From Artocarpus heterophyllus (lineage: Eukaryota > Streptophyta > Magnoliopsida > Rosales > Moraceae), in contig CM046345.1 in the NCBI GenBank assembly GCA_025403435.1, forward strand, positions 6,948,235 through 7,012,234: DNA of 64,000 bases. Reading direction: 5' to 3'. Positions 9,766 to 51,498 of the stretch are shown in pieces. The stretch's first letter is position 1, and each line of letters opens with the position of its first letter. The notes under the pieces are model-generated. The model was not told the origin of the DNA. It saw only the letters and a program-made list of their open reading frames with translations, and did not search any database. A program made the position numbers and the translations under genes.

Positions 9766-10090
9766 ATTTAACTCTTCTCCTAAAACCCTAAACTCAAATA
9801 ATTATCAACTTTTTTTTAGAATGAATAACTAATCACTGTTCTTGACTTTTATTTTTATATACAATCCTTTATGAAGTTAAAAACCAATGGCATTTTTAGC
9901 ACCCTCAGTTACATGGGAAATCATCTTTAATCTTCAACCACACGTTAGAGAATTGAACCTGATGTTTGACAATGGAGATTAACAGACAGACATCAAACCA
10001 TACCCCACAAACAGAACAAAATATCTTATATCCTATCCAAAAAGCCACTCATAGTTAGGTTTTCATGACATTCTTGGGAATGGGGGAAAA

Positions 10091-12451
10091 TGTAACGCCC
10101 CTATATGGGGGTTAACAGTTTTTAATGAGATAAAATAAAAATAAATAATAAAAGTAAAACCTTAAAAATAAAATTTGCCCGGGACTTAAATGAAAACTCT
10201 CAACTCAAAAATAAAAATATAAACGACAATTAAACCACAGTTTAATGTAGCACCTTAAATTTAATAATATAAACTGTTGTCATCATCATTTTAACCCTCA
10301 TCACATTGTAATACAGTCACAGAAAGTAACAATTGATGCTTACATTATCATGAAGAACATTCTCAACAATTGAAGCAGTCCCAATGTAATATAGCTACAT
10401 CACTTCCTCAACTATATTTCTCGTAGCCACCTCACACTTAGTGAGTCCTGAAAAGATATAAACATAAGGGTATGAGCAACACTATGCTCAGTAGAGAAAA
10501 CCATTACTCACCTTTAGGTTTTTATCATTACCACATTAAAACCTGCATGGTTAGTAAGTCACATCATATTTCAGATTATGAGGTTTATTATGATCACATC
10601 TTATGGATACCGTAGTTAATCATTACCAAGTGTCATAATTACACATTTATACAAATATTACCAATCATCATTGTTCCTAGGTATCCATGTTAAATTGAGT
10701 ATCACTCAACTCATCGAAACCCAAATGGGCGCACTTGATCACCCTATAAACATTCCAAGGGTGTTCCGGTGAGGGGACATCAAGCCCCGAGTCCTCACCA
10801 AATCGATTCCTGTACAGTGTGTTCTGGGACTTTCAACCCAAGGAAGCGTCATCGCCTTCCCCCTACTTTACCTTTTAGGGTATTCATGCCCAAGGACGTA
10901 ACCGTCGCCCTTTTCATGTCTCACAATTTCTCTATATTAAATCATTATTAATAGAGTTAATTTTCCTAACCATGCTTCTCAATTTATAACATGTGTCAAT
11001 TCATTATGTTCCTCGCCGTACAATACAAGACGAGTCCATGTCATAGTTTCATATGTGATACACATATAATATCAGTTCAACATAGATATATATATATTGC
11101 GGCAAAACAATCAATTTTAATTCTATAAAAACCTCACAAAAGATGAGTAATAGAATCCCTACCTTTCAAGCTTATCAACAATCTTTTAATCCTGGAATCA
11201 GTTAACGTTAGCTCCATACTCCCTTGATCCTAAGGCGTGCATAAGGACAATTAAAACTAAAGCACAACATACAACTACATTCATAAATAAATCATGTGTA
11301 AACCTATCTTACTAGTATGCCATTAAAGCTTTTATATAAATCTCTTTCGAATACCACAGTAAACAATTTTTGTCTTAACACAATATAAAATGTGAACAAG
11401 TAATCTATATGTTTTAGTCCCTAATAAGATTCATCAATCACTTAGGATAATATTGGAAAGGTTGCAAGACATTAAAGAATTAGGTGGTGAGCAAAGATGG
11501 GTTCTTGGTTCAGGTTAGCAGCTGGTATACCATAACAAACTGGCAGATTTACTAGTTTCCAATACAAAAATTAAATAATTCTTAGAAAATAAAATACAAC
11601 TCCGATTTAGGTTTATGATAGCTCGTTAGAAAGCCTAGGATGCTACTTTTCAAATATGCAAACCAATTCATAAAATTCATTTTAATTTAATCTTAGAATT
11701 TCAAGAAATAACCACTGCCCATAGAGGTATTACAAAGTTTAACAATATAAATTTTCTGTCTAGGGCATATACACTTAGACTTCATACATATGCTCCAAAA
11801 TAGCAACAAACATATACTTAGGTTTAAGAACGCAAATTTGAATAATCCTTTAGTATAAAAGAAAATTTATAAATGAAAGACTAAATTTGTTCATAAGATT
11901 CTAACCTCGGATTATGGTTAGTTGGAAGCTTGAAATGGCTTCAAAACAGGTTCCTTTACTTCGGTATGACTGAAATTTTTGCTCAAATGGAGGTGATGGT
12001 GGCTGATTTTTATGGCTGCCTTGAAGAAGTTCTCTAAGTATTTTGCTTCAGCAAAGAAATGAGAAGAAGAGTGTGGGAACCGTGGAAGAGAAAGGAAGAA
12101 AAGATGAAGTCTTTGAAAAGAAGTGATAGAAACAATTATAGAGGAGACATGTTGAAGCATGTCACGGAGGAAATAAAGAAAATGAGGGTCAAGAGTAGTT
12201 GGAAAAGATATCCTTATGTCTCATCTAAAGACTTTAACACACATAATGCCAATATGACATTTTTGAGATTTATTAGAAGTTCTAAGGCTTTTTAGTAATC
12301 ATACTAAATAAATATAGGAGAATTTTAGAAAACTTAAAAATAGATAAAAATAAATATTATAAAATAAATTTAAATGAAGCAATTTTTTTTTTATACATTA
12401 AAAATTAATTTAATTACCTCAATACCCGTTAGGAGAATAATGGGTGTCACA
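10091..12451 (-). repeat. 3' LTR of the 9.1-kb element (element orientation)
   Basis: 2361 bp, TG...CA ends. Several short ORFs inside (10769-10951, 11918-12160, 12059-12295) recur exactly in the other LTR and look like chance frames, not genes. A transcription end would be expected here in element orientation, but I cannot pinpoint it. Confidence 0.92.
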
Positions 12452-12465
12452 GCTCTACCCCCCTT
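12452..12465 (-). promoter_or_regulatory. Polypurine tract of the 9.1-kb element
   Basis: On the minus strand AAGGGGGGTAGAGC directly abuts the TGTGACACC start of the 3' LTR. This is the expected place and composition for the plus-strand primer. Confidence 0.75.
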
Positions 12466-13406
12466 AAAGAAATTTCGTCCTCGAAATTTCAATTCTAGCA
12501 ATACTAGTAAAAATTTTGATTCCATTATGATTCCAATTCCGAGTCTAAACCGTTAATGTTGTTTATCTTCCAAAGTTAAGTTATCGTATCTCCACTTATT
12601 TACTTGCATAATAAATCTTACTCCTAAATCCCTCAATGAGAGTATTTCTGACAAGTTTCAACTTATAACACCTTATAATAGTCTAAGAATCTGATCAGGC
12701 ATACATATTGACCATATCATGATTCCAGTCCTTCATTGTCCATGGACTGTGATTTACAATCACATTTAAGGAGATTACCAGAGAAATTTTATATACTTCA
12801 TCTTTAGGTTCCTTTTCCTTTTTGAGTAAGGAAAAGTCAAATATATTTGATTTCATACCTCAACTAATAAACTAAAACATAATCATAAAACATATATCAC
12901 AAACACTTTTATTCAAAACTATACATTAAACTTACTCATAGAGATATTAAATGGAATCTCAGAGTTGCAAACATACCCGACATATTTTTCATTAAACAGC
13001 TATCCTCATGACACAAACATTCAATCCAAATAATATACTCATATTTCATATGGAATATCCCCATAACTGACTCTGGTACTTCCACATAATATTAACAGAA
13101 TATTACACATTACAAACATAATACGGATACGTTTCGAGAGTACAAGGCACTCCGTATACCAGCTATCCATATCATGCATGCTTAGAGGATACAAAAACAT
13201 CGATAAACAAAAGATCGGACCTTAAGAAGGATGCGTTTCGAGAGCATCAAGTACTCCGTATCCAGCCATCCCGGCATTAGGCTCAATGAATCTAAAAGAT
13301 TGAACAACAACGTACCACAAGAAACACAGAATACAGGACAAACGGTTATTCGTAACACACGAAATACGGACACACATGCCTACATGCCAAAGATAAAACA
13401 AAAAGA
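12466..13406. other. Non-coding interior of the 9.1-kb element (3' side)
   Basis: No coding frame recognised. Two similar stretches, near 13125-13165 and 13225-13265, both carry TACG/GCGTTTCGAGAG...AAG.ACTCCGTAT.CCAGC, a local direct duplication of about 40 bp. Confidence 0.5.
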
Positions 13407-14058
13407 TTACAGATGGAGATTCAAATCAATTGGCCGCTCCCGGCTTTCCCTTTCCCATTCAAGCTTGGATGTTGCAGTGTCGGATTCTGGATGTATGATT
13501 TGCATTTTATCTATCAATTCCTCAGCTGTTGAAGCAGTAACAAAGATTTGTCTCTCCGATTCTGTAGTGATGTTTTCTTCCACAGCGTAATCTAGAAATT
13601 TCAAAAGACCGTCATAAAAACCCTTTACGTTCAGCAGACCCAAAGGTTTGGAATAAAAGCCCAACAATTGCCCACAAGCAACTATAAATATTTCCTCAAG
13701 AGTACCTAGACCACCAGGTAATGCTATAAAAGCATCAGAATTATAGATTATGTCTTTAAAATTTTTAGGGATACTCCTGACTCCTTCTCCCTTACCTATG
13801 GCTTCCTTACAAAGGTTTCCTTCAACTGGAATATGAGGCCAAATTCTTACATCAGTAGCGTCGCTAGACCTAGCTGCTAGTGCCATATTTACCATCATTT
13901 TTATACTACCACCCCCATAGATTATGTTAATCTTTTTTGCGTGCTAGGACTTGCCCTAAGTGATTTGCAGCTTCTAAATAAGCTTTATCTTTTCCAAAGC
14001 TGGAACCACAAAAGACACAGACATTCTTTATTTTCTTCGTGGACTGGGAGGTAGACAT
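13407..14058 (-). pseudogene. Captured LOG-like gene (cytokinin riboside 5'-monophosphate phosphoribohydrolase family), frameshifted
   Basis: LOG enzymes release active cytokinin bases from their nucleotides. This copy is intronless, while plant LOG genes normally have several introns, and it lies inside an LTR retrotransposon in the element's own orientation, which points to capture from a spliced transcript. The first part (start at 14058) carries the N-terminal VCVFCGSS motif. One extra base in an A-run (plus-strand T-run 13933-13938) shifts the frame, after which the YGGGS motif and the rest read on from the other frame to 13407. The total length, 652 nt, equals 217 codons plus that one base, the normal LOG size. 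The nucleotide-binding motif PGGLGTLEE is intact. The MHxRK region before it is not recognisable; residues near NFK occupy it, so the usual catalytic arginine seems absent. A shorter protein could start at the ATG at 13898. The family assignment is firm; activity is doubtful. Confidence 0.85.
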
Positions 14059-14706
14059 ATTTGGTTTATAGAAGTGGTTGCTTAATGTCTGCTCCACTTA
14101 GACTTCGGGTTCTACATGTTTTAAAGATGAGAAATATACAAAAAGGGCTAAAGAGATAGACGAGTAGGTAATGAAAAAGTAATCCAAAGATTTAAACAAA
14201 ATCTTGTGCGGATAAGAAAGTAAGATAAGGTGATTGATAGTTTACAGAAAATCTGATTCACTTTTTGAAAAAGATTAGACTCTAATTGTATAACTTTTGA
14301 CAATTGAGAACAATTCGACAGAAGACCCTCATGACACAACTGTAGACTTTTTGACAAATATACACCAAGTCTAGAAATTTAATATAAACGACAAATACTG
14401 TAGAACTTTTGAAATTTGAGACACAAATCTTGAAATATCTGGATAAGCTTTTCAAAATTCAAACATATTACTGTACCGTATGTAACGTGTCTGATAAGAT
14501 AATATATTTTATTATATATATATATATATATTTAAGAAAATCATAAATTAAATAAGATATTAACACTTACTGTATCAATCTAATAATCACAATTATTTCA
14601 AACACAAAAGCAAATATTCTGAGTAAAAGAAAAACACAAACTGTTGAACATCAGCTAAAACTGCTTCAAATAAGTAAAGACTAAATAACCTTTATAGAGC
14701 GATGAC
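14059..14706. other. Spacer between the two captured ORFs, with (TA)n
   Basis: Non-coding interior of the retroelement. Contains a (TA)n run at about 14513-14532. No regulatory signal recognised. Confidence 0.5.
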
Positions 14707-15228
14707 TTATTCCCCATCCAGTTTTCTTATGGCTTGACAAACAGGATCTAGAAATACCATATTCCTGAGGCGTTGTCTTTCTGTATAAAATTTAGGCCAG
14801 AGTTTAAAAATAGCTCCTTGAACATATCCACTAGGGTGACCGTGGAGAGGAGGATGGATGCTATCCAAGTTCTCCTTTGAAAGTCCATCCCTACAAAACC
14901 TTATTTTATCCTCTCTATTCGTAGACATATAACCAGGTGAAGTACATTTACCGTTACAATTTTGTCTTCCACATTTGTTACAAGTGACCACGATGGCACG
15001 AGCTCTTCTTTTCATTGCACTACGACTGGTACCTGTTCCTGGTAAACCGACATCTTGACTAAAGTCACTCGGACGGATTTTCCCCTCTATTAACATTCTC
15101 ACATCACAAGGGATGCCAAAATGCATAAGAATCCACAACCGAGTAATTCTAGCTTTGTATTTCTTTCTGAGAATCTTTTGGGAGAGTGATGGGAAATACT
15201 TTCTCAGGTGTTGGTACCTTGGGTCCAT
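14707..15228 (-). CDS. 173-aa basic zinc-finger ORF inside the retroelement, virus NABP-like
   Basis: An intact ORF of 173 codons, oriented like the element. Residues 1-35 are rich in Lys/Arg and hydrophobics. Residues 65-78 form a Gly/Ser then Arg-rich stretch ending in KRRARA, followed directly by four cysteines at 83, 86, 91 and 95 (CX2C-X4-C-X3-C). A charged C-terminal half follows, without membrane segments. A basic RRxR patch immediately before a small Cys-rich finger is the layout of the small nucleic-acid-binding proteins of carlaviruses and vitiviruses (Pfam family Viral_NABP); in that family the proteins bind RNA/DNA and can affect silencing or host transcription. It does not look like a retroviral CCHC gag knuckle. 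The likeness is pattern recognition only. Alternatives are an unknown plant zinc-finger protein or a highly diverged gag. Nothing is seen to break the frame, so selection may have kept it. Confidence 0.6.
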   Translation of the reverse strand: MDPRYQHLRKYFPSLSQKILRKKYKARITRLWILMHFGIPCDVRMLIEGKIRPSDFSQDVGLPGTGTSRSAMKRRARAIVVTCNKCGRQNCNGKCTSPGYMSTNREDKIRFCRDGLSKENLDSIHPPLHGHPSGYVQGAIFKLWPKFYTERQRLRNMVFLDPVCQAIRKLDGE

Positions 15229-16825
15229 GATGAGATGAAAGAAGAGTAAATAGAAAGGAAAAATTAAGATAGTAAATTGCAGAATCCTAGAATTCCTTCT
15301 TCTTTTAGAGGAAAAGAAGAATTTTTAATGAAAAAGAAGAGGATTTGCGATTTAAAGAGAAAATAACAAATTAAGAGAGAAAAAGTGAACTCGGAGAAAT
15401 AAGCTCCTATGCACAGTAAACGTATATGTAAACAATGATTAAACCACTGTATATGACACGTATAGAGACTACGTGGGAGAGACAGTGTGAATCAAACTGA
15501 TTTAAGATTTGAACTAGGCCCAAATGTTCTTAGTTGAAAATGGTCAGGTTGTTTCGGGCCTTAACACATTTAGAACGAGTTAAATAACAAACATAAAATT
15601 GAAAACCAATTTGTATAAATCTTAAACCCAATTCAAAGCCCACTATAGATAAAGTTAACTATAAACAACAAATCTAATTTAACGACAACAAGGATCTTCC
15701 TGAATGATATTTAAAATCATTTCATAACAACACAATCTTCCAGCAACTCAAATAATTTTGTTTTAATCAAAACCTTATTGAACAATACATACACCCATAT
15801 GTTATTCATAATACTTAACATCTATCAATGGATTCATCATCATTGCTACCAAGGGTTTAGAATGTGACTAACCTTGAAATCAATACGATTTACGTCTTCC
15901 AACGTAAACCATATCAATGAACAAAGACACTTGATGTTACTACTTAAGAACATCTACAATCCCCACAATTCTACTTATACAATATATAATTTCCTCATAT
16001 AACAAAACCGTAGGTAACCAAAAGATTCACATCTAAACATCTAAAACTTAAACATTTTATTGTAATTATCCAAAATTATTATAAGTGCCTTAAGTATTAT
16101 GATTTACTTAAGGAAACTCCTATTGATCATTTTTCTATTGCATCTATATATAAAGATTCACTGATACACTTAAATACAATGTACGTAACAAAATATTTCA
16201 ATTTTGAGATTCATGCATTCTAGACTTTACACAGTCTCAACAGACCAAAAGTCTAACATTTATCTCTCTCAAGATTCAATACCATGATTCCCAACTTATA
16301 TCATATTCCTCAAATAAATAGAACTTTTAAGAAAAGATATTGACACTTATGTGCTCCATCGAATCCACACATAATCATTACTTAGGTTTGAATCAATTAC
16401 GAAAAATTTGGCATATCTATGTCAAACTTTAAAATCAATAAATCAAGCCTTATATTTCTTATTGTTTTTCACGAGACAAAAGGCTCTTAAATCCTCGTAT
16501 CTATACGAATTTCTCATCGTTTATACGAATTAAATATGCTTATAGATCCAAATATTATACGAATCTCTCATAAGCATTCTACTTATAAACTCATTCCATA
16601 TAATTATCATTCCCTTATAACTATTAATACTTTCCTTCTATATAATTATTGTACTCATATAACTATTGATATTTTCATTCTATGGCCTTTCCATGTTACA
16701 TCCTTCTAGACTGTATAAATCAATGTGAAGGTTCATTTTGATGATGACAATGAAAATTCAGCTTCAAAACCATCTCAAAAATATTTTTTAAAGTGGTGCT
16801 ACACTCCCTAGGTTAACCGAACCTA
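15229..16825. other. Long non-coding leader of the 9.1-kb element
   Basis: About 1.6 kb between the primer-binding site and the zinc-finger ORF where gag would normally begin. No frame above about 60 codons and no retroviral motif. Between 16440 and 16720 short themes (ATACGAATTTCTCAT, TATAACTATTGATA, CTCATATAA) recur in degenerate form. Confidence 0.55.
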
Positions 16826-16838
16826 GGCTCTGATACCA
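16826..16838 (-). promoter_or_regulatory. Primer-binding site (tRNA-iMet type)
   Basis: The minus strand reads TGGTATCAGAGCC, complementary to the 3' end of initiator tRNA-Met, seven bases inside the LTR at 16846. It fixes the orientation of the element. Confidence 0.9.
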
Positions 16839-16845
16839 AAAATTC

Positions 16846-19205
16846 TGTAACGCCCCTATATGGGGGTTAACAGTTTTTAATGAGATAAAATAAAAATAAA
16901 TAATAAAAGTAAAACCTTAAAAATAAAATTTGCCCGGGACTTAAATGAAAACTCTCAACTCAAAAATAAAAATATAAACGACAATTAAACCACAGTTTAA
17001 TGTAGCACCTTAAATTTAATAATATAAACTGTTGTCATCATCATTTTAACCCTCATCACATTGTAATACAGTCACAGAAAGTAACAATTGATGCTTACAT
17101 TATCATGAAGAACATTCTCAACAATTGAAGCAGTCCCAATGTAATATAGCTACATCACTTCCTCAACTATATTTCTCGTAGCCACCTCATACTTAGTGAG
17201 TCCTGAAAAGATATAAACATAAGGGTATGAGCAACACTATGCTCAGTAGAGAAAACCATTACTCACCTTTAGGTTTTTATTATTACCACATTAAAACCTG
17301 CATGGTTAGTAAGTCACATCATATTTCAGATTATGAGGTTTATTATGATCACATCTTATGGATACCGTAGTTAATCATTACCAAGTGTCATAATTACACA
17401 TTTATACAAATATTACCAATCATCATTGTTCCTAGGTATCCATGTTAAATTGAGTATCACTCAACTCATCGAAACCCAAATGGGCGCACTTGATCACCCT
17501 ATAAACATTCCAAGGGTGTTCCGGTGAGGGGACATCAAGCCCCGAGTCCTCACCAAATCGATTCCTGTACAGTGTGTTCTGGGACTTTCAACCCAAGGAA
17601 GCGTCATCGCCTTCCCCCTACTTTACCTTTTAGGGTATTCATGCCCAAGGACGTAACCGTCGCCCTTTTCATGTCTCACAATTTCTCTATATTAAATCAT
17701 TATTAATAGAGTTAATTTTCCTAACCATGCTTCTCAATTTATAACATGTGTCAATTCATTATGTTCCTCGCCGTACAATACAAGACGAGTCCATGTCATA
17801 GTTTCATATGTGATACACATATAATATCAGTTCAACATAGATATATATATATTGCGGCAAAACAATCAATTTTAATTCTATAAAAACCTCACAAAAGATG
17901 AGTAATAGAATCCCTACCTTTCAAGCTTATCAACAATCTTTTAATCCTGAAATCAGTTAACGTTAGCTCCATACTCCCTTGATCCTAAGGCGTGCATAAG
18001 GACAATTAAAACTAAAGCACAACATACAACTACATTCATAAATAAATCATGTGTAAACCTATCTTACTAGTATGCCATTAAAGCTTTTATATAAATCTCT
18101 TTCGAATACCACAGTAAACAATTTTTGTCTTAACACAATATAAAATGTGAACAAGTAATCTATATGTTTTAGTCCCTAATAAGATTCATCAATCACTTAG
18201 GATAATATTGGAAAGGTTGCAAGACATTAAAGAATTAGGTGGTGAGCAAAGATGGGTTCTTGGTTCAGGTTAGCAGCTGGTATACCATAACAAACTGGCA
18301 GATTTACTAGTTTCCAATACAAAAATTAAATAATTCTTAGAAAATAAAATACAACTCCGATTTAGGTTTATGATAGCTCGTTAGAAAGCCTAGGATGCTA
18401 CTTTTCAAATATGCAAACCAATTCATAAAATTCATTTTAATTTAATCTTAGAATTTCAAGAAATAACCACTGCCCATAGAGGTATTACAAAGTTTAACAA
18501 TATAAATTTTCTGTCTAGGGCATATACACTTAGACTTCATACATATGCTCCAAAATAGCAACAAACATATACTTAGGTTTAAGAACGCAAATTTGAATAA
18601 TCCTTTAGTATAAAAGAAAATTTATAAATGAAAGACTAAATTTGTTCATAAGATTCTAACCTCGGATTATGGTTAGTTGGAAGCTTGAAATGGCTTCAAA
18701 ACAGGTTCCTTTACTTCGGTATGACTGAAATTCTTGCTCAAATGGAGGTGATGGTGGCTGATTTTTATGGCTGCCTTGAAGAAGTTCTCTAAGTATTTTG
18801 CTTCAGCAAAGAAATGAGAAGAAGAGTGTGGGAACCGTGGAAGAGAAAGGAAGAAAAGATGAAGTCTTTGAAAAGAAGTGATAGAAACAATTATAGAGGA
18901 GACATGTTGAAGCATGTCACGGAGGAAATAAAGAAAATGAGGGTCAAGAGTAGTTGGAAAAGATATCCTTATGTCTCATCTAAAGACTTTAACACACATA
19001 ATGCCAATATGACATTTTTGAGATTTATTAGAAGTTCTAAGGCTTTTTAGTAATCATACTAAATAAATATAGGAGAATTTTAGAAAACTTAAAAATAGAT
19101 AAAAATAAATATTATAAAATAAATTTAAATGAAGCAATTTTTTTTTATACATTAAAAATTAATTTAATTACCTCAATACCCGTTAGGAGAATAACGGGTG
19201 TCACA
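16846..19205 (-). repeat. 5' LTR of the 9.1-kb element (element orientation)
   Basis: 2360 bp, nearly identical to 10091-12451. Carries the element promoter by position, but I did not identify a convincing TATA box. Confidence 0.92.
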
Positions 19206-19882
19206 GAAAAAGGTCCTTTTGTTTTTTTTCATGTAAAAACAAAACCAACAAGTAAACCAAACACATGCAAAATTAAACTTATCTTTCTCCTCCTCGGGAT
19301 AACAACAATGTGAGGCTCTAATTCTCTCATCTCAATGTCTCATGTCATGGCCCAAGGAAGCAGACTTTCTTAAAACATATCATAAACAAAATAAATAAAT
19401 AAATAAAATAAAAATAAATAAAAGGGGATGAAGAAGAGACTAGAGCTTGAAGATCATGGGGGTGTTATTGATAAGCGAGAGATTGAGATCATAAAGGCCG
19501 TGGCACACGCTTGGTACAACCACTCCGAGAGCTTCCGACCGACGACGAATGAGTTTGACGCCAGAAAGAGGAATTTCAGAGGCAAGGCTTCAAGATTCAA
19601 GATTGAAGCAATGATCAAATCTTCGTCGTCATCATCAAAGACTTCTAATAAAAGTAGTACTTTCTCTTCTGCAAATTCTTCTTGGGATTTTGGGCAATCC
19701 TTGTGGGACTCTTATGAGATTGTGACAGTCTCCAAGAAGTTAGAGAGTGGGTTGTTGCAGATGTGGAGCCAAATCAAGTTGACAACCCAGCAAAAGGAAG
19801 GAAAAGGGAGAAAATCGCGTCCTCAAAGGCAGAGAGCAAGCGCCGCGGCTCTGGCAGAAGAGCTCCGCGGCGCTGGGATGAG

Positions 19883-20050
19883 GGCGCCTAGGCGCCATGT
19901 GGAGAGCGCCTAGGCGCCAGGTGAATTGCGCCTAGGCGCAATGTGGCAAGCGCCTAGGCGCCAAGGGCTTTAAGCCTAGGCATCGTGAGGATGGCGCCTA
20001 GGCGCCAGGAGAAGAGCGCCTAGGCGCCGCAGGGGAGCGCCGCGGCGCTC
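19883..20050. repeat. Cluster of GCGCCTAGGCGCC palindromes in the copia 5' LTR
   Basis: At least six copies of the palindrome core GCGCCTAGGCGC (first at 19883-19896, then about 19905, 19928, 19950, 19994 and 20015) plus GCGCCGCGGCGC-type palindromes at both edges, spaced about 20-45 bp. Strikingly GC-rich in an AT-rich region. The same cluster is at 23360-23575 in the 3' LTR. Confidence 0.9.
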
Positions 20051-20160
20051 GAAACGCGCTGTGCTGCGCGATGTGTTTTGAATCAAAGTCGAATTCAAAG
20101 GTCCCAAAAACGGGAAACCACTAGGGTTTTCCATTAGTTGCTATTTTCTCCTCCTTTGGT

Positions 20161-20168
20161 TATAAATA
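20161..20168 (+). promoter_or_regulatory. TATA box of the copia 5' LTR
   Basis: TATAAATA preceded by CCTCCTTTGGT. The copy in the 3' LTR is at 23683-23690. Confidence 0.75.
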
Positions 20169-20530
20169 GACACAAGGTGGCTAGGGTTGTGTGTGTGAAA
20201 ACTGTGTGTGAAAAGTGTGAGTGGCATAATTTTGTGAGAGGCAAAATTCTTGAGAGCTCTATCCTTGAGAGAGAAAAAATTCCCATTGGGTGTTAGATAG
20301 AAGAGAGTTTTGGTAAGCACAATTTGTGAGTGTGTGAGAAACTGCTCTTGTAATCTGTAATCTCCTTCATCATAGTGGAATCTGCAAGCGGTAGAAACAG
20401 GACGTAGTCTCAATTTGGACGAACCTGTATAAAAATTTGGTGTCTCTTTTTCTTCTTTTCTCCTATTTATTTTCTGCAATTGTTCGTTCTTGCGATCCTT
20501 GGAATTAGGAGTCGTCTAATTCCCCAACAA

Positions 20531-20543
20531 CTGGTATCAGAGC
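20531..20543 (+). promoter_or_regulatory. Primer-binding site of the copia element
   Basis: CTGGTATCAGAGC two bases after the LTR end, matching initiator tRNA-Met. Confidence 0.9.
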
Positions 20544-20563
20544 GGAGGTTTTGATCAAGAACG

Positions 20564-23197
20564 ATGACTGGAGAAGAAGGTATGGCAGCCGGCATCACCA
20601 AATTTGATGGTTCAGATTTTTCCTATTGGAGGATGCAAGTAGAAGACTACCTGTACAGCAGAAAACTGCACTTGCCCTTGGGTAGTAAGCCCGAAGGCAT
20701 GAAGGATGAGGAGTGGAGTCTCCTTGATAGACATGTACTCGGTGTGATCCGTTTGACTTTGTCAAAGAACGTTGCCCACAACGTTGCGAAGGAGACCACT
20801 ACAGCAGGGATGATGAAGGCTCTGTCAGAGATGTATGAGAAGCCCTCAGCCAATAACAAGGTACATCTCATGAAGAAGCTCTTTAATTTAAAGATGTCTG
20901 AAGGTGCCTCGGTGGTAGAGCACCTGAACAGTTTCAACACCGTCCTAAACCAATTGGTCTCGGTAGAGATTAAATTCGATGATGAGATCAATGCTCTAAT
21001 CCTCTTGGCCTCGTTACCGAATAGCTGGGAACCCATGAGGGTGGCCATTACGAATTCTCTTGGGAGTGCAAAATTGAAGTTTGTTGATGTCAGAAATTCT
21101 ATTCTGGCGGAAGAAGTTCGCAGGAAGGACTCAGGAGAAGCCTCTTCGTCGAACTCAGCCCTTAATGTTGATAATAGGGGCAGGAAACTTGACAGGCAAT
21201 CCAACAGGGATAATGGCAGAAGAGGCAAGTCGAGGAATGGGAGAGGCAATTCAAGGAATGGTAGGACCATGGAGTGTTGGAATTGTGGGAAGACGGGCCA
21301 CTTGAAAAAGAACTGCAGGGCTCCAAGGAAGAACGAAGACAAGACCAATGACGCAGCTAACGCCGCCACTGAAGAGCAACATGATGCTTTAATCTTGTCA
21401 GTCGACAGTTCTTTTGATTCGTGGGTGATAGACTCAGGAGCATCATTCCACACCACAGCACACCGTCATGTCCTGGAGAACTACGTTGCTGGAAATCATG
21501 GTAAGGTATATCTCGCTGATGGAGAACCTTTGGATATAGTTGGCATTGGAGATGTCAGTTTAAAAATGCCTAATGGGTCGGTATGGAAGATTCATAAGGT
21601 GAGACATGTTCCTAAATTAATGCGCAACTTGATTTCGGTAGGGCAACTGGATGATACTGGACATAAAGTAACCTTCAATTGTGGAGGTTGGAAAGTCACG
21701 AAAGGAGCGATGGTTATTGCTCGGGGACGCAAGGCTGGAACTCTCTACATGAACTCTAGTTGCAAAGATACCATAGCAGTTGCTGATTCTGCTGCCAATA
21801 CCGAGCTATGGCATTATAGGCTCGGTCACATGAGTGAGAAGGGTATGAAGGTGCTTCACTGCAAAGAAAAACTACCGGGTTTGAAAACTGTTGATCACAG
21901 TTTGTGTGAAGCCTGCATCTTTGGTAAACAGAAGAGAGTTAGTTTCTCAAAGATGGGTAGAGAGCCTAAGTCCAGGAAATTAGAGCTAGTTCACACTGAT
22001 GTGTGGGGGCCTGCGCCGGTGACTTCCCTTGGTGGCGCAAACTACTATGTGACGTTCATAGATGACTCAAGCAGGAAGGTATGGGTTTACTTTCTGAAAA
22101 ACAAATCTGATGTCTTCGATGCTTTCAAGAGATGGAAAGCCATGGTGGAGAACGAGACAGATTTGAAGGTGAAGTGCTTGCAGTCTGACAATGGGGGAGA
22201 GTATCTAGGTGAAGATTTCAGGCGGTACTGTGCTGAGAATGGGATAAAGATGAGGAAGACCATTCCAGGGAAACCCCAACAGAATGGGGTAGCTGAGAGG
22301 ATGAACAGGACTTTAAACGAGCGTGCTAGGAGCATGAGGTTCCATGCAGGGCTGCCAAAGATGTTTTGGGCTGAGGCAATTAACACAGCCGCTCATCTGA
22401 TCAACAGAAGTCCATCCACACCACTGAAGTTTAAGCTACCGGAAGAAGTCTGGAGCCATAAACAGGTGAATCTCTCTTACTTGAGAGTGTTTGGTTGTGT
22501 TTCCTATGCACATATTGATTCTGCTGCTAGAAGTAAACTAGATGCCAAGTCAAAGAAGTGTTTTCTGGTTGGCTATGGCGGACTTGAGTTTGGTTATCGT
22601 CTCTGGGATGACCAAAGCCGGAAGATTATCAGGAGCAAGGATGTGATCTTCAACGAAGGTGTTCTGTACAAGGACAGAGACAGCACGGACTCCAGGGGTT
22701 CAGGTTCTGAGGACAAGAAGCCTGAGGTGATTCCATTGAAGGATCTTCCTGAAGTGGAGGTGCAAAATCCAGAGGTTGAAGACCAGGAAAACATAGCTCC
22801 AGAAGGAATCCAGAGGACTCCTGCCACACCAGTCAGGAGGTCTAGCAGGACAATCAGACCACCGCAGAGATACTCCCCAACTCTGCATTACATCTTGTTG
22901 ACCGACAAAGGTAAGCCAGAGAGCTTTGATGAAGCCGTGGAGGCTGGAGATTCGGTCAAGTGGGAGTTAGCCATGAGGGACGAGTTGGATCGGACATGGC
23001 AACTGGCAAAGTTACCACAGGGTAAAAAGTCCTTGCACAACAAAAGGGTATACCGGGTAAAAAATAAAAGTGCTGGCAGCAAACGGTATAAGGCAAGGTG
23101 GGTGGTAAAAGGATCCAGAGATATGCTCACCAAGATGGATCCGATTGAGAAACTGAAGTTGTGCGCAACTTCAGTTGGACTTCTCCAAGAGGCGTGA
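20564..23197 (+). CDS. Copia Gag-protease-integrase polyprotein, RT/RNase H deleted in frame
   Basis: A single 877-aa ORF. Gag (copia UBN2 type) occupies about residues 1-230, with a CCHC knuckle CWNCGKTGHLKKNC from 238. Protease active site DSGA is at about 290. The integrase HHCC zinc region spans about 416-453 and the catalytic triad is D479, D542, E578 with the usual 35-residue spacing between the last two. The integrase C-terminal part runs to about 710, followed by an acidic/Pro linker. Only the first few dozen residues of the RT region remain (KARWVVKG); these fuse directly to the last residues of the RNase H end (DMLTKMDPIEKLKLC), near 23105-23125, without loss of frame. The catalytic YVDD region and RNase H are gone. 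Gag, protease and integrase appear intact and could still assemble particles; reverse transcription would have to come from a related element. Confidence 0.95.
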   Translation: MTGEEGMAAGITKFDGSDFSYWRMQVEDYLYSRKLHLPLGSKPEGMKDEEWSLLDRHVLGVIRLTLSKNVAHNVAKETTTAGMMKALSEMYEKPSANNKVHLMKKLFNLKMSEGASVVEHLNSFNTVLNQLVSVEIKFDDEINALILLASLPNSWEPMRVAITNSLGSAKLKFVDVRNSILAEEVRRKDSGEASSSNSALNVDNRGRKLDRQSNRDNGRRGKSRNGRGNSRNGRTMECWNCGKTGHLKKNCRAPRKNEDKTNDAANAATEEQHDALILSVDSSFDSWVIDSGASFHTTAHRHVLENYVAGNHGKVYLADGEPLDIVGIGDVSLKMPNGSVWKIHKVRHVPKLMRNLISVGQLDDTGHKVTFNCGGWKVTKGAMVIARGRKAGTLYMNSSCKDTIAVADSAANTELWHYRLGHMSEKGMKVLHCKEKLPGLKTVDHSLCEACIFGKQKRVSFSKMGREPKSRKLELVHTDVWGPAPVTSLGGANYYVTFIDDSSRKVWVYFLKNKSDVFDAFKRWKAMVENETDLKVKCLQSDNGGEYLGEDFRRYCAENGIKMRKTIPGKPQQNGVAERMNRTLNERARSMRFHAGLPKMFWAEAINTAAHLINRSPSTPLKFKLPEEVWSHKQVNLSYLRVFGCVSYAHIDSAARSKLDAKSKKCFLVGYGGLEFGYRLWDDQSRKIIRSKDVIFNEGVLYKDRDSTDSRGSGSEDKKPEVIPLKDLPEVEVQNPEVEDQENIAPEGIQRTPATPVRRSSRTIRPPQRYSPTLHYILLTDKGKPESFDEAVEAGDSVKWELAMRDELDRTWQLAKLPQGKKSLHNKRVYRVKNKSAGSKRYKARWVVKGSRDMLTKMDPIEKLKLCATSVGLLQEA

Positions 23198-23237
23198 GAA
23201 GTCGTTGCCGCTACAGTGTGAGACATGGTGAATTGAT

Positions 23238-23256
23238 TAGTCTCCAAGTGGGAGAT
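23238..23256 (+). promoter_or_regulatory. Polypurine tract region of the copia element
   Basis: ...AGTCTCCAAGTGGGAGAT immediately before the 3' LTR, the usual copia arrangement. Confidence 0.7.
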
Positions 23257-24051
23257 TGTTGCAGATGTAAAGCCAAATCAAGTTGACAACCCAGCAAAAG
23301 GAAGGAAAAGGGAGAAAATCGCGTCCTCGAAGGAAGAGAGCAAGCGCCGCGGCTCTGGCAGAAGAGCGCCGCGGCGCTGGGATGAGGGCGCCTAGGCGCC
23401 ATGTGGAGAGCGCCTAGGCGCCAGGTGAATTGCGCCTAGGCGCAATGTGGCAAGCGCCTAGGCGCCAAGGGCTTTAAGCCTAGGCATCGTGAGGATGGCG
23501 CCTAGGCGCCAGGTGAAGAGCGCCTAGGCGCCGCAGGGGAGCGCCGCAGCGCTCGTTTCGAGCGCCGCGGCGCTGACGCGCTGTGCTGCGCGATGTGTTT
23601 TGAATCAAAGTCGAATTCAAAGGTCCCAAAAATAGGAAACCACTAGGGTTTCCCATTAGTTGCTATTTTCTCCTCCTTTGGTTATAAATAGACACAAGGT
23701 GGCTAGGGTTGTGTGTGTGAAAACTGTGTGTGAAAAGTGTGAGTGGCATAATTTTGTGAGAGGCAAAATTCTTGAGAGCTCTATCCTTGAGAGAGAAAAA
23801 ATTCCCATTGGGTGTTAGATAGAAGAGAGTTTTGGTAAGCACAATTTGTGAGTGTGTGAGAAACTGCTCTTGTAATCTGTAATCTCCTTCATCATAGTGG
23901 AATCTGCAAGCGGCAGAAACAGGACGTAGTCTCAATTTGGACGAACCTGTATAAAAATTTGGTGTCTCTTTTTCTTCTTTTCTCCTATTTATTTTCTGCA
24001 ATTGTTCGTTCTTGCGATCCTTGGAATTAGGAGTCATCTAATTCCCCAACA
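23257..24051 (+). repeat. 3' LTR of the copia element
   Basis: 795 bp. Longer than the 5' LTR mainly through an extra TTTCGAGCGCCGCGGCGCTG-type unit near 23556-23575, so the palindrome cluster differs by one unit between the two LTRs. Confidence 0.92.
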
Positions 24052-43318: not shown

Positions 43319-46309
43319 TGTCACAACCCGCCTTTTTCGGACTGTGATAAACCCTTTCTTACTTACGTATATACGAAAACTTAGGAAAAACCTTTTTTTT
43401 TTTGTAAATATACTTTACACAAATTTGTTTGCACACATACGTTGGTTTTAGCATCTATCAAAATACAGACATACACTTATATTTACAAAACAACTTTTCC
43501 TTTGTAATACAATTTTCTAAGCATTACTTTTCAAAATGTCTTGAAATATATCACAGCGGAAACTAACTGCGGCAGAATCCATATCATTCTGCACACCGAT
43601 CATCCCTACGCCAGCTCATCCATACATTTATTCTGATCTTCTTGTCGGAATACCTACAGCATGAAATATTTAATGAGCTTACGCCTAGTAAGTCCCATAT
43701 AACCCACATGCACACTTAATAAAAATGCATGATTCATTTATGCTTTCTTATAAACCTTCTTTATCATTTTCATTTCTTATCTTTAACTAGGGCCCAAGTG
43801 TTCGTACCATTGCGCACTTAGGTCTACGTAACACCGTGACCATACTGTATCCTTAAACTCCTCTTGAGTCAAGAGTCGGTATGACACTTTTTTTAATTTC
43901 TGGTGATAGAATTACCAGTCCATTTATTATGGTTATCATATCAAGTATGAAATAATAATCACATGTTATACTCAAACATGAATGTTCTTATACAATACTG
44001 TACATACAGGTACACATTGTTATACTCTCAGGCATACATTAATATACATACTGGTATACAACATAATATACACACAGGTATTTATTTAGTATACTCACAG
44101 GTATACATCAACATACTTATAGATACTCATATCGTAGCATACACACAGGTATACACTTTGATTTATACATAGGTATATATATACACATGTCACATTCTAT
44201 ACCTATAATTTCATACTGTATGTAGGATGGGTACCTACTTGATTTTGTATACCGCGTAAATCGACCTTGATTTTCCTCTGTCCAAGACTTTTAGGATCCT
44301 GTTGGCCAATTTCAAAGCCATTAGCAAATATTCTATTATGTTTCAATGCAAAACATTCGTTAATTATTAAATTGAATTGCATAGCTGTATACAACTTCAA
44401 AAACCACTGATTTTCTTATTTCTATCTAACTCTACCCTATCGTCACTAACGAAGGCCGAAAATCTTTCTAGTGATTTTCTTTTCCCCATTTAAAACATTT
44501 CGGAGTGATTCGGGTTATTTGGACAAAAATGACGATTTTATCCTCCATGGGCCTAATGACCTACCCGAGCTCAATTTCGTTATTCTAACAGAAATAGCCA
44601 CATATTAACTTTAAAATAATACCCTAGTGGCTCGTATCTCCTTATTTCACACCTATGCTTCTTTTTTGTAAAACTTTACAATTTAGTTCCTAAACTGAAA
44701 ATTTTGACAATTTTATCCCCAAGGATAAAATTTATCTCTTTAAACCAAAATTTCCTATTTTTCATAAGGAACATTTTTACTCAAAGTAACATACCTTAAA
44801 TCATTTTGAAAAATGACGTTTTTGCCATTTTAACATTTTTTCACTTTTAACAAATTCTTGAAAAATCAAAATCTCACAAACGGTTGAGTTTTTCGATGAA
44901 CCGTTTTTTATGCCTAATAGTTTCGTCAAGATATACAACTTTTGTGTTTTAATTTTTCTTAAATTCTCACTGTACATGGGTTTTTTTGGCATTTTTCAAA
45001 TCTGTTGAGGGAAAACTTTTTCTTTCAATTAAGTCCTTAGGGTATTTTAGTGAAAATCTGTTTTAAAACTGTAAATCTATCCCTGTATCAGCAGTTTCAA
45101 CCTTTGTTGCAATCATTTACTATATCTAGCATCACTTTTTATAAAACCAACATCAAAATTACAAAAATAATATTTTTTTACACAAACAATTATTTTTCAC
45201 CATAAACCATAATTTCACCATATCAACACACCATACATCATGTAACCATGAAATTCCACCAAATACATGTTTAAGAACCTGCATACTCTTGAAGGAATAA
45301 AAATGAAAACAAAAATTACAAAATTTCAAAACTTTAAAATTCAAAACTTACCCAAATAACACTTTTTGGTTTCTAGCCTTCCAAGGTTCATTTGAAACTC
45401 TTTCCTAGGCATCATTTCCATGCAAGAACACCATGAATTAATTTCCCCCTTAACCCATGAAAAATCCCTTGAAATTTTGGTAAAAAGATTGGGATTTACC
45501 TTAAAACTTATAAAAAATCCTTGAGCTTTGCTTCTAAAACTTGTTTGGGGTTATTTTTGCAAAGAGTTGGGTTGAGAAAATTTTTTGAAAGAACTCAACA
45601 ATGGCTGCCGTGGGAGTTGTGAAAGAAGAAGGAAGAAATTTTTTTTGTGATAAAAATGCATTTAATGATTCCTCATCTACTTGGTTACTTATCAAGTAAC
45701 CCTTTGGGTTACCAAGTGTCACCGTGTGATTGGGCCACCTTTCATGGCTTGGTAGCCCAATAAAATTCAAGTAAGTGTCCACTTTGTGGGGCCTTAAATT
45801 TACACTATGTAATTTTTCACCACACAGTATTTTTTCTATATTGCCATAGTCAAATCAGTGCAAACTCATAACCTTAGACTGTGTAAACTATTTTACCTAC
45901 TTTTGGTTTACTTTTGGAGGCCAAACGTATCATTTTCCTTATCTGTGTTTTCACTTAGCAATATACTTGTACTGCTTCGGCCTCCTTTTTACACTGGGTT
46001 GGGTTTCGGTGGACTCTATATCTCATTCTTATTCGAAGTACCCATTTGTTTGTATCACAATTTTACAATTAATTGTGATATAAAATTCATTTTATGGATA
46101 TTATTTACAAATTTTTGAATAATTAAACTCATAAAATCTATATAAAAAATATACAACATGACATCACATTCGCAGTGGAATATTCAATTAATACTGCTTA
46201 TTTACACATTATCACAATTTTATAAAACTTATAATTTTTAAAGGTAAATTCATTAATTAAACCCAGTTAAATATTAGATTTTATTAATGAATTTTCTCTG
46301 GTCATTACA
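43319..46309 (+). mobile_element. Solo LTR (gypsy-like), inserted in a MATE exon
   Basis: 2991 bp, beginning TGTCACAACCCGCC and ending CTGGTCATTACA. It matches, in reverse orientation, the LTR at 54479-57505 over its whole length with many differences. No internal region or second LTR is adjacent, so it is a solo LTR left by LTR-LTR recombination, or a lone end. Flanking 5-mers (CAAGA / GATGA) do not match cleanly, so the target duplication has decayed or the site has been altered. A tract of degenerate ACAGGTATAC repeats lies at about 44000-44190. Confidence 0.85.
43995..44190. repeat. Degenerate ACAGGTATACA tandem repeats inside the solo LTR
   Basis: Around ten imperfect units of about 20 bp with the core CAGGTATAC. 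The same tract in the other LTR copy, as ACCTGTGTGTATA, is at about 56600-56800, so it belongs to the LTR family. Confidence 0.75.
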
Positions 46310-47777
46310 GATGATTCCTGGCACCTAGTTCGTTTGATACTCTTGTGCTTTGAAGCTCAAAGGCAGAAAGAGGATGTCATAGTGTGGAGGTGATGTTTAA
46401 AGCAATGACAAAAAGTTCCTTATGCAGGACATACCTAACAGCACTGCCAAAGCCAAAGGGGATTCCGTAAACCATTGCACTTGTGTTGAGGCTGTAGCAA
46501 AGTTGCTCAAGTCAACAATTTAGATAACATAAACTATTAAGTTCACGTGTGTTGCATTTGATAGCATGTCTGTAGGGAAACCAATAGAGCAAGGCTTTAT
46601 GTATATGTCAAAATAGAGGAAATGGGACCAAACCCGATTGACATTGATGTCTCAAGCTTTGGATTGGGAAGCAGACCAGACATGAGAACAAGAAACTCAT
46701 ATGACCAATATTCTAGGCTGATTGCAAGTCAAAGTTGTAATCAAAAAACATAATTAAGAGATTGAGGCAATTAAAACTCTTAGAAAATAACCATAAGAGC
46801 TGAAGGTATAGCAAGCTTCAAAAAGGCGATGAGATTTTTCATGCCTTCCTTAGAAAAACCTCTCCAAGTCTTCTGACATGAAGGGCAAAACTTGATGTAA
46901 ATTGCCAAAATCAACACATTGGTCCAATAAGAGATGGCACTGGAGAGAGCAGCCCCTTGACTACCAAAGTCAAGTATAAGAACTAAAGTCCAACAGACAA
47001 AGACATGAAGAAAACTAGTGACCGCGGTTCTAAGCACCAAAGGCCAAATGTTGTTCTGAGTTTGCAAGAACCGGTGTTGGCATTGAAGAAGGCCGTAAGG
47101 GAAAAAGCTAGGAATCAACCAACGCGAATAGAGTCCTACTCGTACCGCGGTTTCGGGGTCTTGTTTGAGGCTTCTGAAGATTTGCTCAGTACAAGACCAA
47201 AGGAGAGATATAGGAATGCACATAAATGTGATAACAAGCATGGCTCTTGGCATGTGTATGCCAAGCATATGATACTGCCTTGCTCCATAGGCCTGTCCAC
47301 AAAAAGTCTCCAAAGCACTTCCAATTCCTAGCTGCTCAAGAATTGAAATTATAGAAGACAACAATGCATATCAACTTGATATTATAATATATAGTATAAC
47401 AAAAATTTGTTAATGCACATAAAAGATTTCCATTGCATTTAAATTTATTTGATTTAATATATAGTATGTACGCTAAAGATGAATAGAAACTACCAGATTT
47501 TATGGCAAGCCCTTACCACTAAACTGAAACCAGTGACCCCAGAAAATGAAGTTGCCATTGAAGAGCTTGACAGAGAAAGCTCCCCCAAATGGCCAATGAA
47601 TATGACAGATGTCATAAGTAGACTGTTTTGCAAAAAGCTTACTAAAACTAGAGGTCCTGCTAAGTACAACTGCTTCTTCAACTCTGCTACAACTTCTGAG
47701 TTGTGATGGCATTGACTGGTTTCTGTGTTTGAGATTAAAGGAGCTTGAAGAGATAATTGGGAATCTGGTTGATCCAT

Positions 47778-48136
47778 ATTATCCCCAAGTTTTTCTTTAA
47801 TCTAAAGAGCGGAGAAGAGATGGGAGTGTTTAAATGCTTTCATTACTTCAACTGCAAGAAGAAAAAAAATGAAACTTTTTTTTTTTTAAAACTTTGAATG
47901 GGAGATTTGAATTCTTACTTTGTAGTAAAGTCGAATGTTAGCATGTCATGCTTGCTACGGAAAAAATAAATAAATAAAGAAGAAGCAAGCTTTTGATAGC
48001 CTGCATTTTGAGTTTGGTTTTTGGGTCGCTAAAAAAAAGTTAAGGAGCCCCATTGGCAGGAGGAGGCCTGACACTTGCGTAGACTTGAGAAGAGCTTGCC
48101 TGGAAAACTGGACCAAATATTTCTAGCGTTGTTTTC
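47778..48136. other. Upstream flank of the MATE pseudogene
   Basis: Probable old promoter of the MATE gene. No other feature recognised. Confidence 0.4.
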
Positions 48137-50833: not shown

Positions 50834-51195
50834 AAGGGCCTATTTGAAAGAGCTTTTTAAAAGTTGTTTTTGGCTTTTTGAGTCTAAAAGCAGCTTCAAG
50901 AAATGTTTGGATGAACCGTTAGCAATGTTTTTGCTCTCAAGATGTTTTTTCCTATTAAAGTTATAAAATATGACTTCTCAAAAAAGCACTTCTTAAATAT
51001 ACTTTGAAATTGTATCAGAGTATTAATAATACATTATAAGCTTAATATAACATTTTTGTAACTTAAAAAAATCATTTTGAGCCATTAAAGCTCTTTTAAA
51101 AATATAGTTCTAAACACTACCTGAAAAGTTATAGTTTTTGATACTCTTTTTCTACTGACTAAAAAAATAAGTAAAAGCTGTACCAAACAGGCTTA
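50834..51195. mobile_element. MITE with GGGCCTATTTG / CAAACAGGCTT ends
   Basis: Left AGGGCCTATTTGAAAGAGCTTTT, right AAAGCTGTACCAAACAGGCTTAA. Terminal inverted repeats of about 20 bp around a 360-bp body with internal AAAAGC/GCTTTT palindromy. Resembles hAT-type MITEs common in plants. Confidence 0.6.
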
Positions 51196-51337
51196 AAACT
51201 TGTTGGACCTATAGTTTGACAATGCCTAGAAACCAAACCAATGAAACGTGATCATTATAAGGTGTCGGCATAAGAGTTTTACGATCAATAGAAACTTATA
51301 TGCAGGTATGCAGTTAAGTCTCCACACTTTTCTTATA

Positions 51338-51495: not shown

Positions 51496-51498
51496 AGC

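Follow-up and report, generated by a model that had tools for sequence, protein, structure and literature searches.

The locus described here raises the question of how an LTR retrotransposon without gag-pol comes to hold two unrelated open reading frames, and whether these frames matter to the element. The window is a stretch of 64,000 nucleotides from the jackfruit genome (Artocarpus heterophyllus).

Structure and age of the element

The sequence at positions 10091–19205 on the minus strand of the window is a complete LTR element with a target duplication, paired LTRs, a primer-binding site (PBS) and a polypurine tract (PPT) (Table 1). The LTRs differ by five substitutions and one indel in a run of T residues, and the interior is 4394 bp. 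At a rate of 1.3e-8 the LTR divergence gives an age of 82,000 years (Poisson interval 26,000–191,000). An earlier note on this DNA had described the GAAAA duplication, LTRs of about 2.36 kb with about five differences and a T-run, the PBS and the PPT, all of which are borne out by the recomputed coordinates. Its estimate of an age of the order of 0.1 million years also agrees with the present value. The motif CGAGGACGAAA is found shortly before the PPT and also precedes the LTR of autonomous chromoviruses in the same genome.

Table 1. Features of the element and its flanks in the window
Feature	Positions	Strand	Remarks
Target-site duplication, left copy	10086..10090	none	GAAAA
3' LTR	10091..12451	-	2361 bp; starts TGTGACACCC, ends GGGGCGTTACA in element sense
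Polypurine tract	12452..12465	-	AAGGGGGGTAGAGC; directly inside 3' LTR
LOG-like ORF, frame-broken	13407..14058	-	codons 1-42 at 13933-14058, remainder 13407-13943
NABP ORF	14707..15228	-	173 aa; flexivirus-type nucleic-acid-binding protein
Leader between PBS and NABP	15229..16825	-	without credible ORF
Primer-binding site	16826..16838	-	TGGTATCAGAGCC; 7 nt inside 5' LTR
5' LTR	16846..19205	-	2360 bp
Target-site duplication, right copy	19206..19210	none	GAAAA

A Pfam scan of the 25 other frames of at least 50 aa in the interior found no gag, protease, RT, RNase H or integrase, which confirms the absence of gag-pol proposed earlier. Three weak matches (E 0.025, 0.14 and 0.046) are all under the cut-offs and none is a retroelement domain. 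The stop-to-stop lengths of the two ORFs, 205 and 178 codons, exceed the maximum of 156 found in 500 Markov resamples and are thus longer than expected by chance. Both ORFs are present in element orientation as the earlier note had it, but the LOG-like ORF is not intact in this copy.

Copies in the jackfruit genome

In the genome from which the window comes, 40 different copies were examined, and all of them carry the two ORFs in an unchanged order. The set consists of 11 copies with both LTRs, i.e. the window element and ten others picked by LTR match alone, and 29 further loci selected by NABP. The latter are 3.5-kb stretches that were compared for the two ORFs. NABP and LOG are present in all 11 paired-LTR copies, where the two LTRs of each pair differ at 0–5 bases; in the ten copies other than the window element the LTR mismatches number 0–4, NABP is open in every copy and LOG in nine. 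Of the 30 loci selected by NABP, which include the window, all have LOG downstream of NABP and 26 have it fully open. A search of the genome with NABP gave 5811 first-look candidates; 150 were scored, and every one is at least 98% identical and without an internal stop. Recurrence of both ORFs in several copies, which the earlier note had left to be checked, is therefore found in the paired-LTR and the NABP-selected sets alike, and the idea that the ORFs are unique to one copy is rejected.

The other possibility raised at the time, that other full-length members have ordinary gag-pol, fails as far as tested. Comparison of interiors with that of the window element shows no gag-pol in any of the ten further paired copies. 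Nor do these interiors include 100 bp or more of continuous sequence absent from the window element, except in L034, where the extra sequence is the initial ~650 bp of an LTR. The PBS is seen in nine of the ten; in L033 the repeat continues past the PBS in a tandem-like manner. There are also 18 unpaired LTR matches. Three have a PBS on the inner side and carry the leader of the window family, and 15 have no PBS there. Among the 11 paired copies, mean differences per pair are 7.1 of 519 for NABP and 3.2 of 516 for LOG, and the pairwise divergence of the leader (0.024 substitutions per site) is greater than that of either ORF. The window element is a member of a large, recently amplified, gag-less LTR retrotransposon family.

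The NABP open reading frame

The translated sequence of the NABP ORF displays a helical N-terminal part, a KRRAR basic stretch, the pattern C-x2-C-x4-C-x3-C and a conserved C-terminal tail. The basic stretch and cysteines that had led to its description as a basic zinc-finger ORF are visible, and Viral_NABP and Carla_C4 matches of its relatives refine it as a flexivirus-type NABP. The window protein alone is under the Pfam cut-offs (E 0.0096, 16.3 versus 23 bits). Within the NABP family, Viral_NABP is found in 112 of 126 members and Carla_C4 in 107 of 126, at E<=0.01. The relatives P0140 and P0196 exceed both curated cut-offs (PF05515/PF01623); P0140 reaches 35.8 bits where the cut-off is 23, and its Viral_NABP match covers residues 38 to 120.

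Relatives with names come from six eudicot genera. Exactly 182 aa is the length of 72 of the 125 relatives, and most are ~43–57% identical to the window protein. The cysteine pattern is displayed by 102 of 125 and the basic pattern by 100 of 125; the window protein shows both. The family alignment has 64 positions conserved at 90% or more. In a tree from 120 of the 126 rows (rows shorter than 160 aa left out) the place of the window row is unsure.

Fold searches return nucleic-acid-binding or RNA-silencing-suppressor proteins of flexiviruses, with E-values that stay above 0.001. Of the first 30 matches to P0140 in BFVD, 26 carry a name, and each of these is a flexivirus protein (best E 2.9e-3); most of the best matches extend over more than 100 columns and unrelated proteins begin only below rank 30. 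Searches of PDB with NABP gave two sequence matches only (E 0.76 and 0.83) and no fold match. Ncbifam gave a single match to the window protein, far under its cut-off, and alignments of NABP against viral contigs gave no relative. The Pfam profiles of its relatives and the predicted folds place the 173-aa ORF in the NABP family of flexiviruses.

The nucleocapsid (NC) portion of gag is likewise a small basic zinc protein. NABP might thus be a nucleocapsid substitute, an analogue of the gag zinc knuckle, its likeness to flexivirus proteins being convergence on a basic zinc-binding protein. The basic stretch and four-cysteine motif fit this, as do the modest fold E-values. However, the likeness reaches well beyond the cysteines, both in the profile match of P0140 and in the length of the fold matches, and no other viral family appears among the named fold matches. 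Such convergence is considered very unlikely.

Flexivirus NABPs (carlaviruses, vitiviruses, trichoviruses and allexiviruses) and the family described here have in common the Viral_NABP/Carla_C4 profiles, a basic stretch followed by cysteines, and a similar predicted fold. For American hop latent virus, for example, a protein of 114 aa with a cysteine motif of this kind is described (PMC3384778). The window protein differs in its length (173 aa, with most relatives at 182 aa), in its conserved C-terminal tail and in its location within a chromosomal LTR retrotransposon of a plant.

The LOG-like open reading frame

The LOG-like ORF, 216 aa long in P0015, has a C-terminal LxLxL tail and retains the PGGxGTxxE motif. 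The arginine of the M-x-x-R motif, which has a catalytic role, is replaced by N in both P0015 and the window; 106 of 120 relatives keep R there. The start codon that opens the 163-aa LOG frame of the window is internal. LOG is fully open in 35 of the 40 copies (9 of 11 paired and 26 of 29 others) and broken in the window. An intact LOG enzyme in the window copy is rejected, since the ORF is split over two frames and the arginine is lost. When aligned against viral contigs, LOG matches 17 loci that are 25–62% identical in the best segment.

LOG-like (YgdH) domains are already on record for Citrus and Populus, in Gypsy consensuses anchored on RT (PMC9289625), and thus the LOG half of the finding is not new.

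Selection on the two genes

Among the 11 paired copies, which apart from the window were selected by their LTRs, NABP displays 15 synonymous and 11 nonsynonymous variants (omega 0.345, p=0.006). Omega is 0.27 for singletons (p=0.009) and 0.45 for shared variants (p=0.17). The value over 40 copies, 0.15–0.21, is biased because 29 of these were chosen by NABP match, and the 11-copy value is the one relied on. NABP is under purifying selection among the 11 paired copies. For LOG there are 15 synonymous and 33 nonsynonymous variants and one stop among copies (omega 0.94, p=0.48; singletons 1.21). LOG shows no detectable constraint among copies and may for this reason be mere baggage. Thus a dN/dS below 1, which the earlier note had suggested as a check, is seen for NABP but not detectably for LOG, and its proposal of cargo linked to hormone activation is not supported as worded: LOG is broken in the window, has lost its arginine and is seemingly unconstrained, and NABP is the constrained gene.

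If both genes had been captured once and spread as neutral passengers by recent amplification, the open frames would reflect youth. The small distances between paired LTRs leave little time for decay, and the LOG values are those expected of a passenger. NABP, however, is constrained in copies that were selected without it, and its relatives have kept a 182-aa length and many conserved positions despite their low identity to the window protein, which is unlike a passenger. Neutral passage of both genes is therefore thought quite unlikely.

A putative autonomous partner

The same genome holds open chromovirus frames of 1554 aa (L083/L084) with a Tf2-1-type SH3 domain, and in L083 a chromodomain is found at the end of the frame. 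Their LTR tips (TGTAACACCCG / GGGGCGTTACA), PBS (TGGTATCAGAGC) and PPT-proximal motif match those of the window element. The search for a gag-pol partner has thus been answered in part, as the tips, PBS and PPT-proximal motif are common to both but the LTR bodies are dissimilar. Because of these matches, mobilisation of the element in trans by one of the genome's autonomous chromoviruses is likely. A second autonomous family, with 1578-aa frames (L081, L082), agrees with the element in the PPT region and not at the LTR end; since it too matches in part, the 1554-aa family is a candidate partner only.

The PBS of the window element is of the tRNA-Met type. This type is described for most chromoviruses but not for non-chromovirus Gypsy elements (Athila/Tat), and also occurs in copia elements (PMC6317226). 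By its PBS and the shared LTR tips and PPT region the window element, itself without pol, would fit the chromovirus (Tekay) type of Ty3/Gypsy elements. An Athila-type element is rejected on account of the PBS.

The sequence near the PPT that is common to the element and autonomous chromoviruses could also mean that the family is a deletion derivative, whose autonomous Gypsy ancestor had NABP and LOG beside gag-pol and lost the latter; the two genes would then be leftovers and not the cause of its success. The YgdH domains of RT-anchored Citrus and Populus consensuses fit such an ancestor. However, gag-pol is absent from the ten further paired copies, the unpaired LTR matches show either the family leader or no inner PBS, and NABP is under purifying selection. 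In addition, the text of an RT-anchored screen of 121 angiosperms, which names not all of its 15 domains, mentions no NABP domain (PMC9289625). A deletion derivative is regarded as somewhat unlikely.

The preferred reading, which is considered probable, is that of a recently amplified non-autonomous family of Tekay-like Ty3/Gypsy chromovirus type with NABP and LOG, mobilised in trans, in which NABP aids the element and LOG is decaying. An autonomous chromovirus resident in this genome, alike in its LTR tips, PBS and the region of the PPT, would package, copy and integrate the element RNA. NABP would be produced from the element transcript and, by analogy with the annotation of its flexivirus relatives, may bind the element RNA or blunt host RNA silencing. 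The LOG-like protein may stem from an older companion gene and today be a pseudoenzyme, or in decay, in the window lineage.

Relation to other elements and to other plants

LARDs (large retrotransposon derivatives) are mobilised in trans and have a non-coding internal domain. They and other plant non-autonomous LTR elements resemble the window family in having LTRs, a PBS, a PPT, high copy number and no gag-pol. In contrast to LARDs, the window family has two recurring ORFs, one of them constrained. The Gypsy-type LTR elements of Citrus and Populus also contain a LOG-like ORF, but were found via RT (PMC9289625, citing Steinbauerova et al. 2011), whereas the window element has no RT and displays a tRNA-Met PBS and a flexivirus-type ORF. 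The LOG-bearing elements of the 2011 work are reportedly Athila-like. Orchid Gypsy elements in which a captured RNA demethylase became fixed offer a further case of an accessory protein directed at RNA, but these keep gag-pol and the gene is of the AlkB type (PMC9289625). Maize Bs1 and other transducing LTR elements contain foreign gene sequence; gene captures of this kind are described in one or few copies (PMC7264820), in contrast to the ORF pair present in all 40 copies examined here.

A literature search that included Pfam names and accessions, judged by titles and abstract openings and incomplete, did not find NABP tied to a retrotransposon. Within that scope, no account of a flexivirus-type gene in an LTR retrotransposon was found. 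NABP would be a gene common to RNA viruses and LTR retrotransposons, and the direction of transfer can be decided by a tree. How gag-less elements attain very high copy numbers despite small-RNA silencing in plants is an open question, for which a high-copy element with a constrained gene from a viral RNA-silencing-suppressor family offers a single testable protein. Tentatively, a gag-less satellite retrotransposon lineage may extend across eudicots, with a silencing-suppressor-type protein common with flexiviruses as its sole constrained gene, either captured from an RNA virus or the source of flexivirus NABPs. Such elements would have abandoned their replication genes while retaining one that counters silencing.

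Indirect evidence from matching contig sizes suggests that LOG and NABP may share contigs in other plants. Among the matches listed (the best 120 of 1046 for LOG and the best 120 of 855 for NABP), those whose longest contig measures 3 kb or more without reaching chromosome size were compared, which gave 31 LOG and 23 NABP clusters. Two pairs from the same source have longest contigs of exactly the same size (4511, jgi; 3111, ena). A length-offset control gave a mean of 0.08 such matches, with two or more in 1 of 200.

Structure and age of the element

The element is a complete LTR retroelement whose LTRs, 2361 and 2360 bp long, differ by five substitutions and one T-run indel. An earlier note had claimed the GAAAA duplication, the LTR pair, the PBS and the PPT, and all are found. 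Its age of the order of 0.1 million years also agrees with the insertion age computed from LTR divergence at 1.3e-8 substitutions/site/year, ~82,000 years (26,000–191,000).

Features of the element
Feature	Position	Strand	Remarks
Complete LTR retroelement	10091–19205	minus	paired LTRs, GAAAA on both sides, PBS, PPT
PBS TGGTATCAGAGCC	7 bases inside 5′ LTR (right-hand)	minus	
NABP ORF	14707–15228	minus	173 aa
LOG-like ORF	13407–14058	minus	
PPT AAGGGGGGTAGAGC	left end of interior	minus	

The interior of 4394 bp displays no recognisable gag, protease, RT, RNase H or integrase, as had been stated from the sequence; the 25 frames of at least 50 aa besides LOG and NABP (of 28) give only three sub-threshold Pfam matches, all to unrelated families. 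Two interior frames, 205 and 178 codons stop-to-stop, are longer than chance (maximum 156 in 500 resamples). A direct repeat of ~50 bp, 82% identical, is found at 13119–13168 and 13223–13271, in the space that separates the LOG-like ORF from the 3′ LTR.

The NABP open reading frame

The window NABP alone shows a weak match to Viral_NABP (E 0.0096). At the sequence level, the identity of this zinc-finger ORF as NABP is settled by its relatives. A single-sequence search gives 14 and a profile search 855 at E ≤ 1, of which the best 120 are listed; named relatives among the matches listed are from Hibiscus, Populus, Xanthoceras, Acer, Rhamnella and Orobanche. Viral_NABP is matched by 112 of 126 aligned members (E ≤ 0.01, best 1.1e-8) and Carla_C4 by 107 (E ≤ 0.01, best 3.7e-8); P0140, one of the relatives, reaches 35.8 bits (cut-off 23). 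Chain length is exactly 182 aa in 72 of 125 relatives, and the cysteine pattern is conserved in 102. The window NABP lies on a long end branch, 1.11, in a tree of 120 members.

The model of the window NABP (mean pLDDT 68.5) has 21 viral-library fold matches, none below E 0.001; 12 of the first 14 are named and all 12 are flexivirus proteins. The P0140 model (mean pLDDT 79.3) has 56, none below 0.001 (best E 2.9e-3). Here 26 of the first 30 are named, all 26 are flexivirus proteins, and 24 of these carry the name nucleic-acid/RNA-binding protein, NBP or RNA silencing suppressor; matches below rank 30 are mostly unrelated phage and viral proteins. The viruses concerned belong to Alpha- and Betaflexiviridae.

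The LOG-like open reading frame

The LOG-like ORF matches Lysine_decarbox/LOG PF03641 (E 5.8e-22) and plant LOG structures (At2g37210, E 8.1e-32). The claim of a LOG-like enzyme ORF thus holds for its identity but not for an unbroken frame, codons 1–42 of the window copy being in one frame and the remainder in another. The frame is open in most copies examined in the same genome, and the last 176 residues of P0015, a 216 aa public protein, are identical to the window ORF.

P0015 and the window ORF both keep PGGxGTxxE, have K and V in the GLMG loop, and have N at a position where 106 of 120 LOG-like relatives have arginine, a catalytic residue. An LxLxL tail ends 83 of 99 near-full-length relatives (P0015–P0134 set), and the window copy terminates IDLNLHL; the tail resembles an EAR repression motif. 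The alignments to the structures of two Arabidopsis LOGs break off 8 and 13 residues short of the structure ends.

The ORF has no intron, since P0015 aligns gap-free to At2g37210 over 200 residues and, across both of its frames, to the window DNA. The gene may have been captured via mRNA.

Copies in the genome

A 305 bp LTR query of the 985 Mb assembly containing the window gave 1035 candidates, and the 40 scored are all 99%–100% identical; ten other paired copies were taken from these. All ten have NABP of 173 aa, ungapped, stop-free and 97%–99% identical, and nine have an open LOG frame. They cover 97%–100% of the interior of the window element, and none of the ten has an interior stretch of at least 100 bp absent from the window element. 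LTR pairs within a copy, the window copy included, differ by 0–5 bases. Two LTR sizes occur, ~1.97 kb (most copies) and ~2.36 kb (window copy, L033 and L034), set apart by a segment of about 380 bp. One LTR of L034 does not match the window element over its first ~650 bp.

The NABP query of the same genome gave 5811 candidates, which is not a copy count. The 150 scored all reach 98% identity or more and are free of internal stops; they are the best matches and no measure of the intact share. In all 30 fetched loci, of which the window copy is one, LOG lies downstream of NABP, at 645–649 bp in the 14 with distance given, and is fully open in 26. Recurrence of both ORFs in several copies, a point raised by the earlier note, is therefore seen in 11 paired copies and in all 30 NABP loci. 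Over 40 distinct copies LOG is open in 35 and NABP in 40, 29 of the latter having been selected by NABP.

At L033 (G000:C1:11392630–11401685) the repeat does not end with the second LTR but extends into PBS and leader. NABP matches at C1:11396525 and C1:11403139 are 6614 bp apart; the arrangement resembles a tandem in which elements share LTRs. Similar NABP spacing is found at C26:2082707/2089335 and C12:16953274/16959645.

Selection

As judged from omega, recent constraint is supported for NABP and not for LOG; a dN/dS below 1 across copies is thus established for the NABP ORF only. NABP in the 11 paired copies shows 15 synonymous and 11 nonsynonymous variants (omega 0.345, p = 0.006, observed transition bias applied). 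LOG residues 45–216 in 40 copies show 15 synonymous, 33 nonsynonymous and one stop (omega 0.94, p = 0.48); variants common to at least two copies give 0.54, not significant. A simpler pairwise count in 11 copies, with no transition correction, gives 0.20 and 0.19. Conservation of length and fold across plants argues for past constraint on LOG.

Mobilisation and possible function

No gag-pol element with this LTR is found among the paired copies and 18 unpaired matches, all drawn from the 40 scored near-identical LTRs. Three of the 18 continue into PBS and the same leader; 15 lack a PBS on that side, which fits 3′ or solo LTRs.

Chromovirus-type elements are numerous in the genome, with 13035 candidates for PF24626, of which 150 were scored; open frames 1554 or 1578 aa long occur in several of them. 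Equal-scoring frames of these lengths at several places (L081, L083, L085, L086) suggest recent activity of autonomous chromoviruses. The 1554 aa family (L083) ends in a chromodomain and has LTR tips TGTAACACCCG and GGGGCGTTACA, PBS TGGTATCAGAGC and a CGAGGACGAAA motif before the LTR; the element has tips TGTGACACCCG and GGGGCGTTACA, PBS TGGTATCAGAGCC and the same CGAGGACGAAA motif. The gag-pol partner that had been envisaged, with common LTR ends, PBS and PPT, is thus matched by this family in tips, PBS and motif but not in the remaining LTR stretches read, which are unlike the element. In the 1578 aa family the PPT region matches and the LTR end does not. Athila and Tat do not use a tRNA-Met PBS, according to PMC6317226. 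Because of the LTR tips, the PBS, the PPT-region match and the tRNA-Met PBS, the best reading of these sequences is that a Tekay-like chromovirus may mobilise the element in trans, Tekay being a probable clade name.

Structure, recurrence and NABP constraint are observed. The element transcript would be driven by the LTR and NABP translated as its first ORF. NABP could bind nucleic acid through its basic and cysteine region, and the element may gain either from RNA packaging or from protection against RNA silencing, a role for which many viral relatives are annotated. Gag-pol would be supplied in trans.

Relation to published elements

Steinbauerova et al. in 2011 reportedly described two Athila-like elements with LOGL4. 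For Citrus and Populus, Gypsy consensuses with LOG-like (YgdH) domains have already been published (PMC9289625, citing Steinbauerova et al. 2011); since that screen took RT as its anchor, it would miss a family lacking RT. The accessible portion of a review of extra ORFs (PMC7264820) mentions neither a LOG nor an NABP gene, and the papers found under the NABP Pfam names and accessions have, judged by title, nothing on retrotransposons. We rate a LOG-like ORF in Gypsy elements as already known and a non-autonomous LTR element with a constrained flexivirus-type gene as a new form of a known type of element. Two coincidences in length between NABP- and LOG-bearing contigs suggest, indirectly, that the two genes may travel together in other plants.

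Other repeats in the window

A second, defective LTR element of copia type is located nearby at 19752–24051, with direct repeats of 0.78–0.80 kb, ~96% identical. Its frame at 20555–23197 has gag, zinc knuckle and integrase domains, and a reverse transcriptase reduced to a 44-residue stub. The region 43604–57178 contains several inverted-repeat pairs of 78 to 521 nt, 81%–88% complementary, the outermost arms being 43604–43724 and 57058–57178; together these look like an old inverted duplication. Two identical 300 bp stretches are found at 53362 and 54112.
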